Program-made: the position numbers and the translations under genes
Shown: positions 17,012 through 26,421 of the stretch, in pieces
Position numbering within the stretch: the first letter of the stretch is position 1
Layout of the letters: each line of letters starts with the position of its first letter
NCBI RefSeq assembly: GCF_000373925.1
Contig: NZ_KB892757.1
Span: 1 to 40,605 of the forward strand
DNA: 40,605 nucleotides
Direction of reading: 5' to 3'
Origin: Actinopolymorpha alba DSM 45243
Lineage (GTDB): Bacteria; Actinomycetota; Actinomycetes; Propionibacteriales; Actinopolymorphaceae
Notes under the pieces: model-generated
Seen by the model: only the letters and a program-made list of their open reading frames with translations
Database searches by the model: none
What the model was told of the DNA's origin: nothing

Positions 17012-17064
17012 GTGCCGGAGGTCTTCTCGGCGGCTTGCCTGAGCCGTCGAGGAGCCTCCGGCAC
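17012..17064 (+). terminator. Terminator after the secreted glycoside hydrolase
   Basis: Stem GTGCCGGAGG (17012-17021) / CCTCCGGCAC (17055-17064), with nearly continuous pairing inside (GGCGGCT with AGCCG). It begins 14 bp after the stop codon. There is no T-run. Confidence 0.75.
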
Positions 17065-17142
17065 TCGTGTGCGGGGTACGCTCGCGCGAGGTGGCCCACC
17101 GAGCCGGCGGTGGGGGTGGCCGGAACCACACAGGGGACGGGA

Positions 17143-17946
17143 GTGGGTTTGTTGATTCCGAACGTTGTTCACCTGATCTTCGGTCTGGCGCCCGACTTCG
17201 GTGGCAAGCCGTTCTCGCTGGTCCACCATCTCGCCATCGAGTCGATCAGGCGGACCAACAACCCCAGCGCCATCAACCTCTACTGCAGGTACGAACCAAC
17301 GGGGGAGTGGTGGGAGCGGAGCCGACCGCACGTCCGGCTCCATCACCTTGATCCGCCCACGGCGGTCGGCGGCCGCGAGATCAGGCACTACGCCCACCAG
17401 GCTGATCTCGCCCGGCTGGAGATTCTGTACCAGGAGGGCGGTATCTACCTCGATCTCGACGTTATCTGCGTACGCCCGTTCACCCCGCTGCTGTCTGAGA
17501 GTTGCGTGCTGGGCCTGGAGCTTGGGCGTCGGGTCGAGGGCTTGTGCAACGCCGTCATCCTCGCCGAGCCGCGAGCCAGGTTCATCGGTGAATGGCTGCG
17601 CGGCTTCGACCCGGAAACCTCGCTGTGGCAGGGATTCAGGTCAACGGGATTCGATGACCACTGGACGGAGTACTCCGTGCAGTACCCCTGGCTGCTGGCG
17701 AGGACGTACCCAGAACACGTCCGGGTCCAGGGACATCGCAGCTTCTTCTGGCCGAACTGGACCGACGAGGGTCTGGCCAGGCTCTTCGAGCGACCCGAGT
17801 CGGACTATCCCGGTGCGTACTGCCACCACCTGTGGGAGAACCTCGCCTGGGAGCCCTACCTGCGGACGCTCACGGTTCGCGACGTGCGGGAGGGCACGAG
17901 CTACTTCTGCCAACTCGTGCGGCGCTACCTTCCACCCGAGTCGTGA
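17143..17946 (+). CDS. Glycosyltransferase with DXD motif (Gly_transf_sug / GT32-like)
   Basis: Predicted sugar transferase of 267 residues using a nucleotide-sugar donor. The diagnostic block is HQADLARLEILYQEGGIYL followed by DLDVICVRPF. The DXD metal and nucleotide site is D104-L105-D106, as in capsular and mannosyl transferases of the GT32/TcdB-like group. The GTG at 17143 follows GGGGACGGG and begins where similarity should begin (LLIPNVVHLIFG, with IPxxxHxIxxG); the longer frame upstream overlaps the terminator and is rejected. It is the last gene before the RiPP locus, same strand, 233 bp upstream. It may decorate the RiPP or belong to envelope glycan synthesis; the sequence does not decide. 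Confidence 0.8.
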   Translation: MGLLIPNVVHLIFGLAPDFGGKPFSLVHHLAIESIRRTNNPSAINLYCRYEPTGEWWERSRPHVRLHHLDPPTAVGGREIRHYAHQADLARLEILYQEGGIYLDLDVICVRPFTPLLSESCVLGLELGRRVEGLCNAVILAEPRARFIGEWLRGFDPETSLWQGFRSTGFDDHWTEYSVQYPWLLARTYPEHVRVQGHRSFFWPNWTDEGLARLFERPESDYPGAYCHHLWENLAWEPYLRTLTVRDVREGTSYFCQLVRRYLPPES

Positions 17947-18069: not shown

Positions 18070-18160
18070 GGGAATGATCACGTTTGCGTGATCGTTCCCC
18101 ACGAAACGTGGCAAATTTGCCTAGCCTGGTGGGGAATGACCACGTAAACGTGATCATTCC
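18070..18160. repeat. Array of four palindromes upstream of the radical SAM gene
   Basis: In order: hairpin 18070-18099 (arms GGGAATGATCACG and CGTGATCGTTCCC, loop TTTG); CCACG-AAA-CGTGG (18099-18111); perfect palindrome GGCAAATTTGCC (18110-18121); hairpin 18133-18160 (arms GGAATGACCACG and CGTGATCATTCC, loop TAAA). The first and last share the arm GGAATGATCACG with one mismatch each. The array ends 20 bp before the GTG start, so it lies in the promoter or leader. It could be an operator set, an RNA switch or an inserted repeat element. Confidence 0.7.
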
Positions 18161-18179
18161 GGCGGAGCCTGGAGGGGCT

Positions 18180-20276
18180 GTGGAGGACGCTCGACTGACC
18201 CTGGTCTCCATGCCCTGGAATCTGCCGACCCGTCCTTCCATCCAGCTCGGCGTGCTCGCTGGGTTCGCCCGCGCGCGCGGGGGTTCGGTGGTGTCCGTCC
18301 TGCCCCTGCACGTCGACTGGTTCGACTTCCTCCGCACGCGGATGGGCTCCGGCGCCGAGGAGGCGTTGGACTTCTACCGCTACGTCGCCGAGGGGCTTTA
18401 TCCCGCGCTGGCTGGCGACTGGGTATTCGCCGGCTGCCTTCACCCTGGCTTCCACGAGGAGGAGTACCTCTCGTTCCTCACCGACCGGCAGGTGGCCGCC
18501 GGACGACGCGAGCGCCTGCGGGAGCTGCGCGCAGTGGCCGCCGACTTCATCGAGACCGCGGCGGAGCAGGTGGTCGCGACCAGGCCGGACGTCCTGGGCA
18601 TGACCGCGACCTTCAGCCAGACCATGCCATCCCTCGCCCTCGCCAACCGGGTGAAGCAACTCGCGCCCGAGGCCGTCATCATCCTGGGCGGGAGCAACTG
18701 CGACGGCGTGATGGGGCCCGCGTTGCTCCGGTCGTACCCCTTCCTCGACGGTGTGGTCTCCGGCGAAGGTGAACGGCCGCTCGGGCACATCCTCGATTCG
18801 GTACGCGCTCACCGGTCTCTCACACCCACCAACGGCTTCCTGCCTCGGGAGGCCCTCGAAGACCACGACGACGGGGAACCGGGAGAACTAGGGGAACGCG
18901 GAGAACGCCCGCCGAGCTCCCGTACCGATCCCGGCCTCGACGGACTCGGGCTGGCCCCGACCACGCCGGACTATGACGACTACTTCGTCCGGCTCCAGGA
19001 CAGCCCCGACCACGACCTCCTCCTGCGCCACTGCGAGCTGCCGATCGAGATGTCGCGCGGGTGCTGGTGGGGTGAGAAACACCACTGCACGTTCTGCGGC
19101 CTCAACGGCACGACCATGAAGTTCAGGAGCAAGGACGGCAGCGCCCTTGCCGAGCAGCTCCAGCGGTTGGCCGGCAAGCACGGCGTCCTGAACTTCTACG
19201 CGGTGGACAACATCCTCGACATGCGCCACATCGACGAGGCGATGCCCGAGGTGGCCGCGCTCGACCTGGACTTCTCACTCTTCTTCGAGGTGAAAGCGAA
19301 CCTCCGCCGGCACCACCTGCGAAAGATCCGGGCCGCCGGCGTCACCCTGGTGCAGCCTGGCATCGAAAGCCTGAGCACGCCGATCCTGCGAAGCGTCGAC
19401 AAGGGCGTCACCGCGTTCCAGTGCATCAGGTTCCTGCTCGACTGTGCCGAGGTCGGGATCGCGGCGGAATGGAACATGATCCTGGGCCTGCCGGCCGAGA
19501 CGCCGGAGCGGTTGCGCGAGGTGATCCAGCTCGTCCCGTCGCTCATCCATCTGCGCCCGCCCACGATCAGCCCGCTCGAGGTGGAGCGGTTCAGCCCCTA
19601 CTTCGATCGCGCGAACGACCATGACATCCGGCTGCTGGGGCCGCGGGAGGGATACCGGCACGTCTTCGACGTCGACCACGACGAGCTCGCGGACATCGCG
19701 TACATGTTCAGGTTCGAGGTTGTCGACGAGGACGCGGCGAACGAGACGCTTCGCGAGCAGCTGCGGACCCGGGTCGGTATCTGGCGCAAGGTCTGGCGGG
19801 AAAGCACACTGGCGTACCGCCGAGGCCCGGGGTTCCTGGTCGTCGACGACAACCGGCGTGGGCTGCCTCGGCGCAGGCACCTCCTCCGGGGAGCGGACGG
19901 CGACCTCTTCGCCGCCTGCCTCGGTGGCACCAGTGTGTCGAAGCTGCGTGCCCTGGCCGGATCGCTCGGGTGCTCGGACGGCGACATCGACCGCCTGCTT
20001 GGCCAGTGGCGCTCCGCTCGACTGATCTATGAGGAGGCCGGGCAGGTCCTCGCGCTTCCGGTCAATCTGGCCCGGCCACGGCCGGACGACGGCGCCGACC
20101 GGACGCCGATCACGAACGGCAGCAGCGCGCACCTGAGCGACACCGGTCCCGCCAGTGACCTGGACACGCTCCTGGTGCCGGCACTCGCGGACTCTCGTGA
20201 CGTCGCGTCGCGGGCGTCCGCCCCAGGACCTCCCGGACCGCTCCCGCTCACATCGCGCGGGAGACGGGAGGGTTGA
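18180..20276 (+). CDS. RiPP-maturation radical SAM C-methyltransferase (B12-dependent type)
   Basis: Predicted enzyme of 698 residues that modifies a ribosomal peptide by radical chemistry, probably C-methylation. It starts like the family called RiPP maturation radical SAM protein 1 (LTLVSMPWNLPTRPSIQLG). The N-terminal part (1-230) is a cobalamin-binding-type domain with ILGGSNCDG. The radical SAM core carries an atypical CX7CX2C cluster motif: C295, C303, C306 in SRGCWWGEKHHCTFCGLNG. A winged-helix-like domain (about 575-620) and a low-complexity tail follow. The GTG at 18180 has GGAGGGG just upstream, although the spacing is short; ATG 18210 is an alternative. It is the first gene of a set with the precursor (38 bp on) and the YcaO. 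Methylation is the family expectation, not shown here. Confidence 0.88.
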   Translation: MEDARLTLVSMPWNLPTRPSIQLGVLAGFARARGGSVVSVLPLHVDWFDFLRTRMGSGAEEALDFYRYVAEGLYPALAGDWVFAGCLHPGFHEEEYLSFLTDRQVAAGRRERLRELRAVAADFIETAAEQVVATRPDVLGMTATFSQTMPSLALANRVKQLAPEAVIILGGSNCDGVMGPALLRSYPFLDGVVSGEGERPLGHILDSVRAHRSLTPTNGFLPREALEDHDDGEPGELGERGERPPSSRTDPGLDGLGLAPTTPDYDDYFVRLQDSPDHDLLLRHCELPIEMSRGCWWGEKHHCTFCGLNGTTMKFRSKDGSALAEQLQRLAGKHGVLNFYAVDNILDMRHIDEAMPEVAALDLDFSLFFEVKANLRRHHLRKIRAAGVTLVQPGIESLSTPILRSVDKGVTAFQCIRFLLDCAEVGIAAEWNMILGLPAETPERLREVIQLVPSLIHLRPPTISPLEVERFSPYFDRANDHDIRLLGPREGYRHVFDVDHDELADIAYMFRFEVVDEDAANETLREQLRTRVGIWRKVWRESTLAYRRGPGFLVVDDNRRGLPRRRHLLRGADGDLFAACLGGTSVSKLRALAGSLGCSDGDIDRLLGQWRSARLIYEEAGQVLALPVNLARPRPDDGADRTPITNGSSAHLSDTGPASDLDTLLVPALADSRDVASRASAPGPPGPLPLTSRGRREG

Positions 20277-20314
20277 CGTACCACCGAGAGTTGTGCCGAG
20301 AGGAGGAGATGGCA

Positions 20315-20458
20315 ATGGGCGTGGGCTGTAGTGGCGACGGTATCTACATGCTCGACGACGAGTTCCTCGAGGAGAGCCCGTGGTCGGCGGAACTCACCGA
20401 GCTTGAGCTCGAAGAGCTTCGGGCTTGGGAGCGCGACGAGAGAGTGACTCGCGTCTGA
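20315..20458 (+). CDS. RiPP precursor with bottromycin-like C-terminal follower peptide
   Basis: Peptide of 47 residues between the radical SAM and YcaO genes. The N-terminus is MGVGCSGDGIYMLDDE; the C-terminal half contains FLEESPWSAELTELELEEL and then RAWERDERVTRV. From memory, the bottromycin precursor has FLNDDPNNAELSALEMEEL at the same place, followed by a Trp at the same distance, with 12 of 23 residues identical in the aligned block. Bottromycin precursors start M-G and carry the core at the N-terminus, so the core here should be GVGCSGDG or slightly longer. Cys5 is the only cysteine and the likely YcaO target. The ATG at 20315 is chosen because AGGAGGAG (20301-20308) is 6 bases away; ATG 20309 directly abuts it. 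No homology search was possible. Confidence 0.82.
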   Translation: MGVGCSGDGIYMLDDEFLEESPWSAELTELELEELRAWERDERVTRV

Positions 20459-20540: not shown

Positions 20541-21887
20541 GTGGGACGACCCGCGTTCGAGGCCGTGACACCGGAGCGCGAGATCAGCGTTCGGGCGGCC
20601 ATCGAACGCGCCCGGCGGGAGCTCGCGGCCCTGGATCTCGACGTCGAGGAACGCGTGCTCGGCGACACTGAGCTGCCGGTGACCATCTACACCGCGCGCG
20701 ATCGGGCCGGAAAGGTCGTGTCGAGGAGCCTCGGCAAGGGCCCGGGCGCGCAGAGTTACGCCAGCGGTCTCTTCGAACTCATCGAGCACTACTACCTCGA
20801 CTGGCGGCGACGTCCATATGACCGGGGCGAACCGGCGTTCCTTCCGGTTGAGGAGCTCGCGGCGCAGCCGCACCTCGCGCGGGCGAACCTGGTTCAGAGA
20901 CTGCGTGTCGGTCTGCGAGGCCAGCAGCTGTTCTCCGCCCGCTACCAACCGCTGGACGGCGGCCATCCCGCACTGAACGGCGGCGGTCCGCTGTGGTTTC
21001 CGGTTTTCATGCGCGATCCCGCCTACCCCCACCACATGGCGCCGGATGACCAGAGCGAGTTCCGGTCGTACCGCCACTTCTCCAGCGGCATCGGAACGGC
21101 CGCGGGCGTCACGACGGCGGAGGCGTTGCTGCACGCGATCTGCGAACTCGTGGAGCACGACGCGATGTCGCAGGCGCTCGCTGAGTGGTACGTCGGGCAT
21201 TGTGGTGACCATGCGGAGCGGCCGGTGCGGTTGCGCCGGGTGGATCCGGCGACTCTGTCTCCGGAGACGGCCGCCATCTTCGAACGCGTCCGTGCGCGCG
21301 TCGACGGCGAGCTCTGGTTGCTCGACATCACGGGTACGCCCGGGATTCCGGCGTACCTCGCGGGGACGGCCGATCCCACCCGACCCGTCGCGCGCACCGG
21401 ACGCGGCGCGTCGCTCCTGCCGGACTATGCGGCGCAGCGGGCGCTCACTGAACTCCTCCAGATCAGCCTGAGCCAAGAGCAGGATCCCGAGACGGCTCGG
21501 AAGCAGGGTCGCACCATGGTGGAACGCCTGGCGCGATGGCCATGGATGGCGCGGGCGGCGCGGCTCGACCTCACCGAACTCGCTGGTCGCCTGCCGACAG
21601 TTCGGACGCCCCTCAGGGCGTCGCCGGCACGGGCGAAGGACGTACCCGCGCTCCTGTCCGAAACGCTGCGCCGCCTTGCTGAGCGGGACATCGCGGTGTA
21701 CTTCCGCCACGCGAAACCGCCCGATCCTGGTGGCACGGAGCCGTCTGGCGAAGCGACCGGCGGTGCGACCGGCTCTGGTGTCGTGGTGGTGGACGTCCTC
21801 GCTCCGGGGCTGGAATTGCTCGACATCGTGCGCAACGGACTGCCGCTCCCGCCCACAGGCCGGCTCGCGCACCTCCTGAATTCCTGA
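20541..21887 (+). CDS. Stand-alone YcaO-family cyclodehydratase
   Basis: ATP-dependent enzyme of 448 residues that activates a peptide backbone carbonyl, giving azolines, amidines or thioamides in RiPPs. The ATP/Mg motifs are recognisable: LFELIEHYY (E79, E82), HAICELVEHDAM (E202, E205, H206) and LTELLQ (E304, Q307). The C-terminus ends with a proline-rich GLPLPPTGRLAHLLNS. No E1-like or ocin-ThiF partner gene is present, as in bottromycin-type and thioamide systems. The GTG at 20541 is chosen for the AAAGGA site 9 bases upstream; an earlier in-frame GTG at 20490 falls inside the hairpin. It closes the RiPP gene set; the next gene is on the other strand, 665 bp away. Which bond it forms cannot be told from sequence. 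Confidence 0.88.
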   Translation: MGRPAFEAVTPEREISVRAAIERARRELAALDLDVEERVLGDTELPVTIYTARDRAGKVVSRSLGKGPGAQSYASGLFELIEHYYLDWRRRPYDRGEPAFLPVEELAAQPHLARANLVQRLRVGLRGQQLFSARYQPLDGGHPALNGGGPLWFPVFMRDPAYPHHMAPDDQSEFRSYRHFSSGIGTAAGVTTAEALLHAICELVEHDAMSQALAEWYVGHCGDHAERPVRLRRVDPATLSPETAAIFERVRARVDGELWLLDITGTPGIPAYLAGTADPTRPVARTGRGASLLPDYAAQRALTELLQISLSQEQDPETARKQGRTMVERLARWPWMARAARLDLTELAGRLPTVRTPLRASPARAKDVPALLSETLRRLAERDIAVYFRHAKPPDPGGTEPSGEATGGATGSGVVVVDVLAPGLELLDIVRNGLPLPPTGRLAHLLNS

Positions 21888-21973: not shown

Positions 21974-22019
21974 GTTGTCATAGGTTTCTCGGCTAAGAGA
22001 CCGAGAAACCTATGACAAC
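21974..22019 (+). terminator. Long perfect hairpin after ycaO
   Basis: GTTGTCATAGGTTTCTCGG (21974-21992) pairs perfectly, 19 bp, with CCGAGAAACCTATGACAAC (22001-22019) around the loop CTAAGAGA. It lies 87 bp after the ycaO stop and probably ends RiPP transcription. It has no T-run, and it may equally be a dispersed palindromic element. Confidence 0.6.
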
Positions 22020-22088
22020 TCGCGAGTTCCCTGATTCTCGGCAATGAAGCTGAGGCACCTCCGCCAAGTAGGGCGTGCCGCGGGTGCT

Positions 22089-22262: not shown

Positions 22263-22309
22263 GATCGTGAAGGATTCTGGTCACATAGCGACGAAAATCC
22301 TTCACGATC
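22263..22309 (+). repeat. Dispersed hairpin repeat, copy 2
   Basis: Stem GATCGTGAAGGATT (22263-22276) / AATCCTTCACGATC (22296-22309), perfect over 14 bp, loop CTGGTCACATAGCGACGAA. The same stem as at 9616-9662 and 17 of 19 loop bases are shared, so the copies are related by descent rather than chance. Confidence 0.8.
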
Positions 22310-22552
22310 ACGGCCCCGCGCTTCGAGACGGTCGCGGGGCGGTCGCGACCTCACGCGATATCTCCCGACGAAGCATACTGAATTCGTCTTACTTGGTGAC
22401 GACGTGGCGCACCAGAGCCCGAACTGGTCGCACATCTGCGGTACCTCGGTAAGACCGTGGAAACTACAGGGTGTTATAAAACCCCGGAGGCTCCACAATC
22501 TGACTCGGCGGGGGACCTGCACCCCTCCACGGGACTTGCCCGCGGTCTCTGG

Positions 22553-23621: not shown

Positions 23622-23661
23622 TGCTCTGTCGTGCCGTGAGTTGCTCTACCGTGCCGTGAGT
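23622..23661. repeat. 20-bp tandem direct repeat in a divergent promoter region
   Basis: TGCTCTGTCGTGCCGTGAGT (23622-23641) is followed at once by a copy (23642-23661) differing at two positions. It lies between two divergent glycosyltransferase genes. It may be a regulator-binding site occupying two turns per unit, or simple replication slippage. Confidence 0.6.
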
Positions 23662-23856
23662 CCGTCCTACCTGGAATCAGCCGTTATGGGAGAGGTTCTG
23701 AGCGCGGCGGCGCCGCCCGGAGCCTCCATTGCGTCGGACAAAGATACCGACGTCACCTCACGAACCCGGACCTTCGTGCGCCAAAGAGCCCTCGGACGAT
23801 TGCCCGAACCTGACAAGCTGGGGATAAGCGCGAAGTGTCATGGGGGAGGCGTGGGC

Positions 23857-26421
23857 GTGGCCGCTGTCGCCACAGAGAGAGTTCGCTCCGGCTCGGCCGG
23901 TTCTGGGCGACGACGCGTCATGATCGTGTCGGCGCAGATGGGCGCGGGGCACGACGCGACTGGTCGTGCGCTCGAGGAGGCGTTCCGCGAGCACTGGCCC
24001 GACAGCGAGGTGCGCTGGGTCGACACCCTCGACACGATGGGTCCGGGCGTGGGCGCGGCGTTTCGCTGGATCTATGTGGCCAGCGTCGAGCGCGTGCCCT
24101 GGCTCTATGAGCTCTTCTACACCGCCACCTGGCGCTATCCCTGGTTCGCGCGGGCCGCCAAGCGCTTCACCGGCAGCTGGTCGGGTCGGCGGCTGGCCAC
24201 CGAGATCGACGGCTTCGAACCCGAACTCATCCTCAGCACCTACCCGCTCGGCAGCGCGGGGCTCGCCTGGCTCCGCAAACACCGTGGCCTCGCGGCACGG
24301 ACCGCGGCCTGGGTACCAGATTTCGCGCCCCACCCGTTCTGGGTCTACAGCGAACTCGACACGACGTACGTCATGCACGACACAGCGGTACCGCTGGCAC
24401 GGGTGGTCGACCAGACGGCGAATGTCCAGGTGTCCGCCCTGCCGGTCGTCCAGGCGTTCCACCCCGGCAGCCAGGCGTCGGCGCGCCGACGTCTTGGGCT
24501 CAGGCCGGACGCGTTCGTGGTGCTGCTGTCCGGTGGCGCGTTCGCGTTCGGGATCGTCGAGTCGATGATGCGGGCGGTTCTCTCCGCCGACGAACGCATC
24601 CAGGTGGTGACGGTGTGCGGGCGCAACCAGGCCGCGCTGGACCGCCTCGAGCGGCTGGGCGTCGGCCGGGACCGCCTGCTACCGCTCGGCTGGGTCGACG
24701 ACATGCCGCTGCTCAACCAGGCGGCAGACGTGGTGGTGACGAATGCCGGGGGAGCGACCGCGCTGGAGGCGCTGGCGTGCGGCCGGCCGGTCTTCATGGC
24801 CGAACCCATCGCCGCGCACGGTGCCGCGAACGCGAACCTGATGACGGTCGCCGGACTCGCCGAACTCTTCGCCTCGAAGGCACAGCTCACCGCCCGGATG
24901 CGCGCCGTCGTGGCGGACGCGGCGCCGCTGCGTTCGCTCGGGAGGGCGGCGCGATCCCATGTGGCGCGGTACGACCTGAGCCGTGAGGTCGGTGGGTTCG
25001 CCGGTCCGGTGCCGGTCCTGACCCAGAGCTTGACGCCGGGCCTGACGCCGGGCCTGACGCGAGGCTCGAGCGAGGGGAGCGCCCCGCTCTCCCCAGCGCC
25101 GCGTCCCTGGCCGGTGCGGTCGGCGGATGCGTTCTTCGTTCACGTGGAGGATGGCCGGGCGCCCCAGGAGGTCGGCGCGGTGCTCGAACTCGACCCGCTG
25201 ACCGATGGACGCGCAGAGACCGTCAGCCTTCGGCAGGTCCGCGAGCTCGTGACGGAGCGGATGCGCTACCTGCCGCCGCTGCACCGGCAGTTGGTACGGC
25301 GCGGACACCAGCTGGGTTGGGCCTGGCAGGACCACGTCGACGTCGACGCGCACGTGGTCGAGCATCCGGGCGGTGCCGGGTCAGACGCGGAGATGACCGC
25401 GGCGGTCGAGGGGTTCTGGTCGCGGGCGATGCCTCGGGCACGGCCGCCGTGGCAGATGATGCTGGTACGCCACCGCGCCGGCGGCCCGAGCATCCTCGCC
25501 GTCAAGGTGCACCACGCCATGGGCGACGGCATCTCGGCACTCGGGCTGCTGGACGGCTTCCTCGACGCTGACCCGGGTGAGTCTGGTGCCCGCGACGACG
25601 GCGACTCGCTGGCGTCGGCGCTGCCAGACACCCTGGGCGGGGCCGCATTCCTCCGGGGACTCTGGCAGCTGTCGACTCGCGGCCGCGCACCACACCACCC
25701 ACTGAACCATCCGGTCTCGGCTCCGGTGGAGCCCGGCAGGCGAAGCCCGCAGGCGCCGGATCCCACCACGGGGCGTTCGGTGGTGCTGGTTCCCCTTCCT
25801 GGTAAGGACTTTCGACGTACGGCGGAACAGTTCGACGTCCGTCTGCACGAGCTTGCGCTCGGGGTGGTGGCCGAAGGTCTGGAACGCGTCCTCCGCCCGG
25901 CCGGCCTGCTCGCTTCGCGCGGGCCGCTGCGGGCGATGGTCCCGATGACGACCCCGCGACGTCTCGACCGGATCTTCGGCAACTGGAGCGGCGCGGTCGC
26001 CCTCGACCTGGCGATGGGGCCGATGGCGCCGAAGGTACGCCTCGACCGGATCTGCGCGGAGGTCCGGCATGGTGTGTCCAACGGCGAGCCGCTCGCGGCC
26101 AGCGCGGTCATGCGTACCACCGCTCTCCTCCCGGCGCCCGCCCAAGCGTGGTTCGCCCGCCACAGCTACAGCGACCGGTACTTCAACCTTGTCGTGTCCT
26201 ACCTCCCGGGTCCACGTGGGCCGCGCCGGCTCGCGGGCGTGCCGGTGCGGGCGATCTATCCGGTCCTCCCGACCGCCGGCAATCTCCCATTGGCGGTCGG
26301 TGTGATCACCACCGAGGCGGTCGCGGCGGTGGGGATCGTGACCGATCGGTCGCTGGGACTCGACGCCGGCGCGGTGACCGCATCGGTGCAGGCAGCGTTC
26401 CAGGAGTTCGCGGAGGCGTGA
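23857..26421 (+). CDS. Fusion of a glycosyltransferase and a WS/DGAT-type O-acyltransferase
   Basis: Two enzymes in one chain of 854 residues. Residues 22-385 form a GT-B glycosyltransferase like MGDG synthases (MIVSAQMGAGHDATGRALEE, WVPDFAPHPFWVYSELDT, and the donor site VVVTNAGGATALEALACGRP). A Pro/Leu/Thr linker with a short repeat (LTPGLTPGLTRG, about 393-404) follows. Residues 420-854 form a wax-ester/diacylglycerol acyltransferase with the active-site HHxxxDG at 552-558 (HHAMGDG). The C-terminal NLVVSYLPGPRGP matches the usual end motif. It would fit a route that glycosylates and then acylates a lipid. The GTG at 23857 is chosen for GGAGG 7 bases upstream; longer starts give low-quality sequence. 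The transporter gene follows after 1 bp. Confidence 0.82.
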   Translation: MAAVATERVRSGSAGSGRRRVMIVSAQMGAGHDATGRALEEAFREHWPDSEVRWVDTLDTMGPGVGAAFRWIYVASVERVPWLYELFYTATWRYPWFARAAKRFTGSWSGRRLATEIDGFEPELILSTYPLGSAGLAWLRKHRGLAARTAAWVPDFAPHPFWVYSELDTTYVMHDTAVPLARVVDQTANVQVSALPVVQAFHPGSQASARRRLGLRPDAFVVLLSGGAFAFGIVESMMRAVLSADERIQVVTVCGRNQAALDRLERLGVGRDRLLPLGWVDDMPLLNQAADVVVTNAGGATALEALACGRPVFMAEPIAAHGAANANLMTVAGLAELFASKAQLTARMRAVVADAAPLRSLGRAARSHVARYDLSREVGGFAGPVPVLTQSLTPGLTPGLTRGSSEGSAPLSPAPRPWPVRSADAFFVHVEDGRAPQEVGAVLELDPLTDGRAETVSLRQVRELVTERMRYLPPLHRQLVRRGHQLGWAWQDHVDVDAHVVEHPGGAGSDAEMTAAVEGFWSRAMPRARPPWQMMLVRHRAGGPSILAVKVHHAMGDGISALGLLDGFLDADPGESGARDDGDSLASALPDTLGGAAFLRGLWQLSTRGRAPHHPLNHPVSAPVEPGRRSPQAPDPTTGRSVVLVPLPGKDFRRTAEQFDVRLHELALGVVAEGLERVLRPAGLLASRGPLRAMVPMTTPRRLDRIFGNWSGAVALDLAMGPMAPKVRLDRICAEVRHGVSNGEPLAASAVMRTTALLPAPAQAWFARHSYSDRYFNLVVSYLPGPRGPRRLAGVPVRAIYPVLPTAGNLPLAVGVITTEAVAAVGIVTDRSLGLDAGAVTASVQAAFQEFAEA

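Follow-up and report, generated by a model that had tools for sequence, protein, structure and literature searches.

Three genes of Actinopolymorpha alba DSM 45243, encoding a radical SAM protein, a precursor peptide and a YcaO protein in that order, probably make up a small RiPP cassette. It would represent a sister lineage of the bottromycin pathway in which the core differs. The gene, the follower likeness and the grouping of the enzymes are read from sequence, and the chemistry would follow by analogy with bottromycin. A conserved follower joined to a changed core is the best reading, since the likeness of the followers is genuine and, among the sequences compared, each of the two enzymes falls with its bottromycin counterparts. 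The enzyme groupings are evidence independent of the follower match, and stronger. The DNA analyzed (the window, 40,605 nucleotides) is part of a 261-kb contig of an 8.0-Mb genome that is about 96% complete. All three frames of the cassette are intact. The features are as follows.

17035..17946, plus strand: upstream ORF with a glycosyltransferase DXD domain (PF04488, E 5e-12)
18084..20276, plus strand: B12-dependent radical SAM protein of the RiPP C-methyltransferase type, 730 aa if read from the earliest start codon in frame (TIGR03975)
20301..20306, plus strand: Shine-Dalgarno sequence AGGAGG, 8 nt before ATG 20315 (read from the sequence)
20315..20458, plus strand: precursor peptide gene, 47 aa plus stop, MGVGCSGDGIYMLDDEFLEESPWSAELTELELEELRAWERDERVTRV
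20318..20347, plus strand: predicted core GVGCSGDGIY, residues 2-11 (placed by the boundary before bottromycin Met10 and the presence of Met12)
20348..20455, plus strand: predicted follower, residues 12-47 (bottromycin follower similarity)
20360-20428, plus strand: conserved follower block, residues 16-38 (12 of 23 residues identical to bottromycin, gapless)
20541..21887, plus strand: stand-alone YcaO, 448 aa (PF02624; tree; EHYxLDWRR motif)

The sequence-only reading had described a 47-residue peptide gene between a RiPP radical SAM gene and a YcaO gene. The open reading frame was found at exactly 20315-20458, with neighbors matching TIGR03975 and PF02624. An alternative ATG six bases upstream is also open, but lies only 2 nt from AGGAGG. 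The G + C content of the ORF by codon position (0.70, 0.40 and 0.79) is like that of coding DNA of the same type. The bottromycin precursor sequence used in the earlier reading was also correct, as the same peptide, MGPVVVFDCMTADFLNDDPNNAELSALEMEELESWGAWDGEATS, was read from two genomes (L142 and L143, Streptomyces by inference), where it scores 114 bits against the NCBIfam bottromycin model NF033414. A variant precursor, MGPAVVFDCMTADFLNDDPNNAELSELEMRELESWGSWSDENGSVE, with the core GPAVVFDC and a score of 104 bits, was read from Saccharopolyspora sp. NFXS83 (L042:6651-6791). The L042 locus is a bottromycin cluster comprising a radical SAM gene, the precursor, two YcaO genes and a second radical SAM gene; a third YcaO gene lies at 1038-2387 on the minus strand. 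The L142 cluster additionally contains P450, amidohydrolase, alpha/beta hydrolase, carboxyl-methyltransferase-like and transporter genes.

The bottromycin follower presumably starts with Met10, after Cys9. We placed the core of the window peptide at residues 2-11 because of this boundary and the presence of Met12. Residues 16-38 align without gaps to bottromycin residues 13-35, and the 12 of 23 identities, Trp included, reproduce those first noted from the sequence. The local alignment score of the window peptide against the bottromycin precursor is 68. None of 20,000 shuffles of the whole peptide reached that score (maximum 59), nor did any of 20,000 shuffles of residues 12-47 (maximum 53). 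When the AELTELELEEL block was kept unchanged and only the remaining residues were shuffled, 24 of 20,000 runs still reached the observed score, indicating that F17, L18, P22 and W38 together with their spacing add real support. Similarity under proper alignment, which had been set as a check on the claim, is thus significant. The distance from the Phe to the last residue is 31 residues in both peptides. The N-terminal parts score only 11; Met1 and Gly2 agree, as the earlier reading had it, and beyond this Met-Gly start only Asp8 does.

Among 798 stop-to-stop pieces of the window (20-400 aa) the next best score was 35. Of 5,040 small ORF readings taken across 167 loci, only the two bottromycin peptides (187 and 148) scored above the window peptide, and the best other peptide reached 52. 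In a single-protein scan NF033414 matched residues 16-38 with an E value of 6e-4 and 19.4 bits, which fails the curated cut-off of 40 bits. A search of 392 genomes of one genus (inferred to be Streptomyces) with the same model at E ≤ 1 gave matches listed in 41 genomes, two of which are true bottromycin genomes, and the best non-bottromycin match among those listed scored 16.8 bits. No match was found in the A. alba genome itself at E ≤ 0.001, probably because a 19-bit match in a whole-genome search exceeds that limit. Chance similarity to bottromycin was rejected on the basis of the shuffles, the 392-genome search and the small-ORF scoring. In all likelihood, judging by sequence, the C-terminal half of the peptide is homologous to the bottromycin follower.

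The peptide match by itself is not proof. Daptides share the ELxELExxEL block in the recognition region with both the window and the bottromycin peptides, and in single-protein scans with NF033414 two daptide precursors, taken from the below-cut-off matches of the 392-genome search, scored 16.5 and 17.8 bits (E 0.002-0.005) versus 19.4 for the window peptide. As daptide leaders carry so similar a block, the follower match alone is not unique and its margin on NF033414 is small. The daptide leader sequence AELVELEMQELE (L132, L137 and L138) is close to the bottromycin follower sequence AELSALEMEELE, even though it belongs to a leader in daptides and to a follower in bottromycin. These peptides give scores of 52 against the bottromycin precursor and 44-46 against the window peptide. 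The block could therefore be a general RiPP recognition helix within an ordinary leader-core precursor, in which residues 1-35 would be the leader and the last dozen residues, RAWERDERVTRV, the core. We consider this unlikely. The tail contains one Thr and no Ser or Cys and would be a poor YcaO substrate, the Phe-to-end length is that of bottromycin, and both enzymes group with those of bottromycin, in which the C-terminal part is the follower to which the modifying machinery binds (PMC7136475, in excerpt). In daptides, in contrast, the block sits in an N-terminal leader, the core ends in Thr and other enzymes are involved (PMC10036551, in excerpt). Assignment of the window peptide as a daptide precursor was rejected, as no daptide model matched it at E ≤ 1 and it ends in Val rather than Thr.

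The YcaO protein provides a second line of evidence for a sister lineage with a conserved follower. A longer reading from GTG 20490 is also open. The two YcaOs that follow the precursor in bottromycin clusters were assigned by gene order rather than by direct comparison with BtmF: we took the first to be BtmE (thiazoline) and the second to be BtmF (macroamidine), the two functions being those given in PMC5103208 (in excerpt). The window YcaO scored 191-203 bits against the second bottromycin YcaOs and 177 bits against the next group, whereas the first bottromycin YcaO gave no match at 1e-6. A quick tree of 83 rows, which omitted near-duplicates (L017-L020), Rhizobium rows (L095-L098, L100, L102 and L105) and frames shorter than 300 aa, placed the window protein with three second bottromycin YcaOs at a support of 95. 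Careful trees were then built from 30 and 29 representatives chosen from 89, both without three very long first-YcaO bottromycin rows. In the 30-row tree a long Paenibacillus branch fell beside the clade; the free tree was better by 1.2 log units (p-AU 0.38), and the clade was not rejected. Without that Paenibacillus row (L051), the window and second bottromycin YcaOs grouped at 99/97. Union of the window protein with the group of the MGNSNSNG peptides (see below) was disfavored both with the Paenibacillus row (p-AU 0.035) and without it (p-AU 0.013). The EHYxLDWRR motif occurs in only four of the 89 YcaOs, namely the window protein and three second bottromycin YcaOs, and the window protein has the invariant columns of its relatives. 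On these features it is putatively of the macroamidine type.

The YcaO could instead form an azoline at Cys5 or Ser6 of an N-terminal core, with the same follower and no amidine. The predicted core does contain both residues, and oxazoline or thiazoline formation is a usual YcaO reaction, although it is described with a partner protein (PMC8442711, in excerpt). The grouping of the window enzyme with the second bottromycin YcaO, together with its failure to match the first, which is taken as the thiazoline enzyme, argues for the amidine. A 37-38% relative does not reveal the finer details of function. Azoline formation, though rather doubtful, is a reading to be taken seriously.

The radical SAM protein likewise falls with its bottromycin counterparts, as expected if the cassette is a sister lineage of that pathway. 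It matches TIGR03975 over residues 39-660 with 521 bits and retains the Cx7CxxC motif CWWGEKHHCTFC, and its Pfam B12 match falls below the cut-off of that model. The first 30-34 codons (18084-18185) recur on two other contigs (C79 and C2) at 65-73% identity, and they resemble a dispersed repeat more than they do enzyme coding sequence. Given that the DNA for residues 1-30 is repeated in this way, the true start is probably later, at GTG 18180 or ATG 18210. Seven of eight bottromycin rows scored 400-422 bits against the protein (the eighth, cut by the end of its locus, 241), versus 351 bits for the best non-bottromycin radical SAM protein among those fetched. A 34-row tree joined the window protein to the eight bottromycin rows at 100/99, and the bottromycin rows grouped together at 93/88 with the window protein outside them. 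When either bottromycin subset was omitted (L126 was left out of these trees), the window protein joined the other subset with an SH-aLRT value of 99. Note that the program warned of long branches in the 34-row tree and, in the subset trees, that the long branches of the window and bottromycin rows meet, and that in one subset tree the row with the highest identity to the window protein was the non-bottromycin L118 (40%). At E ≤ 1e-5 the A. alba genome has one radical SAM protein of the bottromycin clade; two other matches cover only query residues 1-34, the repeated stretch.

Both flanks of the cassette carry sugar genes. Among the window ORFs scanned, glycosyltransferase-like ORFs lie on each side, and beyond them are solute-binding and permease genes, a beta-galactosidase and a rhamnosidase. 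The upstream ORF at 17035..17946 is probably not part of the cassette. Downstream, ORF 23641-26421 is an MGDG-synthase-like glycosyltransferase fused to a wax ester synthase/DGAT acyltransferase. A scan for promoters and terminators detected none. Long inverted repeats, found by eye, lie 3' of the YcaO gene at about 21975-22023 and 22265-22310, for example TTGTCATAGGTTTCTCGG...CCGAGAAACCTATGACAA. No transporter or peptidase clearly belonging to the cassette was found alongside it among the ORFs scanned, and few bottromycin genes are present, as would be the case if a bottromycin-type cluster had decayed here or lost its activity. A remnant seems very unlikely, however, given three intact frames, the invariant columns of the YcaO, the retained radical SAM motif and an ideal ribosome site. 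Moreover, branching of the radical SAM protein outside the bottromycin rows is better explained by a separate lineage than by genes lost recently.

The cassette and bottromycin both have the Met-Gly start, the follower block, an equal length to the C-terminus and the radical SAM-precursor-YcaO order, and their YcaO and radical SAM proteins group with each other in trees. The window core is not GPVVVFDC, is about two residues longer and has no terminal Cys, whereas the bottromycin core GPxVVFDC ends in Cys. One YcaO and one such radical SAM protein are encoded, versus two and three (BtmC/G/K) in bottromycin. The first bottromycin YcaO is thought to form a thiazoline from the core-final Cys. No thiazoline-forming second YcaO was found in the approximately 96% complete A. 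alba genome at E ≤ 0.01 (all 38 candidates scored, although an empty result is weak when no positive control accompanies it), and this fits the absence of a core-final Cys. The window ORFs scanned include no amidohydrolase, P450 or aminopeptidase gene, and among them no O-methyltransferase gene adjoins the cassette. An amidohydrolase search of the genome gave matches that were all partial, with 30-45% identity, and that lie on other contigs. The amidohydrolase that removes the bottromycin follower is, going by the title of a paper on it, reportedly thiazoline-specific. The window cassette is not a bottromycin cassette: its core differs, the NF033414 cut-off is failed, no thiazoline YcaO was found and there is only one radical SAM protein.

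In the pathway that we propose by analogy, residues 12-47 would act as a follower bound by both enzymes, and removal of Met1 would free Gly2. The YcaO would then activate a backbone amide for attack by the Gly2 amine, giving an N-terminal amidine. By analogy with bottromycin the amidine ring would comprise four residues, Gly2-Val3-Gly4-Cys5, closing on Cys5. The radical SAM protein would C-methylate a core residue (Val3, Ile10 or Tyr11 is a guess), and some protease would release the follower. The product would have no counterpart of the thiazole half of bottromycin, which agrees with the absence of both a thiazoline YcaO and a core-final Cys. In bottromycin itself, the Gly1 amine plausibly attacks the Val4-Val5 amide in a reaction of the YcaO BtmF and the amidohydrolase BtmI (PMC5103208, in excerpt), and a peptidase dedicated to this step takes off the Met (PMC10885120, in excerpt). 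The earlier reading had held that follower recognition was kept and that the product was entirely different. A conserved follower with a changed core is supported, but the product may resemble bottromycin in its chemistry and so be less different than that reading held, because the enzymes are of macroamidine and C-methylation type.

Streptamidine offers a further comparison. Its biosynthesis (AmiA/AmiD) needs a stand-alone YcaO for an amidine formed from the N-terminal amine of the product (PMC8442711, in excerpt). The window cassette likewise has a stand-alone YcaO. Streptamidine differs in having a central HLSATH core with both leader and follower and other partner genes; the HLSATH core is absent from the window peptide.

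Searches of relatives, class and family genomes found no second copy of the cassette. YcaO matches were obtained in 3 of 57 relatives (A. alba plus two weak matches) and, at 1e-10, in 8 of 394 class genomes including A. alba, and radical SAM matches in 21 of the 394 at 1e-30, again including A. alba; these large searches scored only a few candidates per genome. No second copy was found in the 35 genomes of one family, probably not Pseudonocardiaceae. In a further family 30 of 341 genomes matched at 1e-45, and none of the 20 loci fetched had EHYxLDWRR. A constant N-terminal leader with a varying C-terminus in close homologues, named beforehand as evidence against a follower, was not seen, as these searches found no close homologue at all.

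A first scan of genome contigs for relatives gave none. A second scan, which applied two patterns drawn from a YcaO alignment to 84,980 species genomes, gave 208 relatives, of which 80 loci were kept. The scan was not exhaustive, because the 80 rows contain no Streptomyces though two bottromycin clusters occur in Streptomyces-type genomes. Small ORFs were defined by an ATG start, 24-70 codons and a ribosome site. The zone counted as near begins 500 bp ahead of the point where the YcaO match starts and ends 40 bp past it, and it holds 79 such ORFs in the 80 loci. In 55 of the 80 loci a small ORF directly upstream of the YcaO gene begins with Met-Gly (44) or Met-Ala-Cys (11), compared with 53 of the 973 small ORFs that lie outside this zone. 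The class was chosen once the data had been seen, and loci that are related do not count as independent. Recurring types (L026-L104) are MGNSNSNG, MGNVVDY, MGYMSSWNAN, MGIFNIPFLISG, MACAGYEW and MGxxRSE, and the peptides span Actinomycetota, Pseudomonadota and Bacillota. Many have L[ST]xxE...L near the C-terminus, and 35 of the 55 have a segment like it after residue 10 (a loose pattern, counted without a null). The MGNSNSNG, MGNVVDY, MGYMSSWNAN and MACAGYEW peptides resemble the window peptide in being small Met-Gly or Met-Ala-Cys ORFs directly before YcaO but differ in sequence, with local scores of 15-45 in ten examples. Eight of the YcaO-linked peptides gave no convincing match to NCBIfam or Pfam. 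Six strings from such peptides were searched for in the literature; only one occurs, in two papers unrelated by title. No TIGR03975-like radical SAM gene is present in the 80 loci except in L042. In Nonomuraea gerenzanensis (L004:4358-10352) an MGNVVDY peptide and YcaO lie between trypsin-like protease and NACHT-domain genes, an arrangement that recalls defense genes. In a Pseudomonas (L061:7805-11010) an MGYMSSWNAN peptide and YcaO are followed by methyltransferase and alpha/beta hydrolase genes.

The view that follower-only RiPPs are very rare is made doubtful by these 55 candidate precursors. Bottromycin could be one tip of a large, mostly unrecognized group of YcaO pathways spread over several phyla. 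In such pathways the extreme N-terminus would be modified once Met removal has freed it, which would account for the Met-Gly and Met-Ala starts, and a C-terminal helix would be recognized. The window cassette would then be, of all those compared, the nearest relative that bottromycin has outside its own clusters, and a simpler, perhaps older form with one radical SAM protein and one YcaO. We offer this tentatively and with less than even confidence.

To our knowledge, no other follower-guided antibiotic has stood beside bottromycin, whose single core sequence varies only slightly, as in GPAVVFDC. We found no title or abstract on a bottromycin-type cluster with another core in a literature search whose coverage mostly excludes subscription papers. 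If the proposed relationship is true, the follower/enzyme system accepted new cores in evolution, and A. alba would provide a three-gene system for follower-guided YcaO amidine formation and B12 radical SAM methylation. It would also bear on the origin of the bottromycin radical SAM set.
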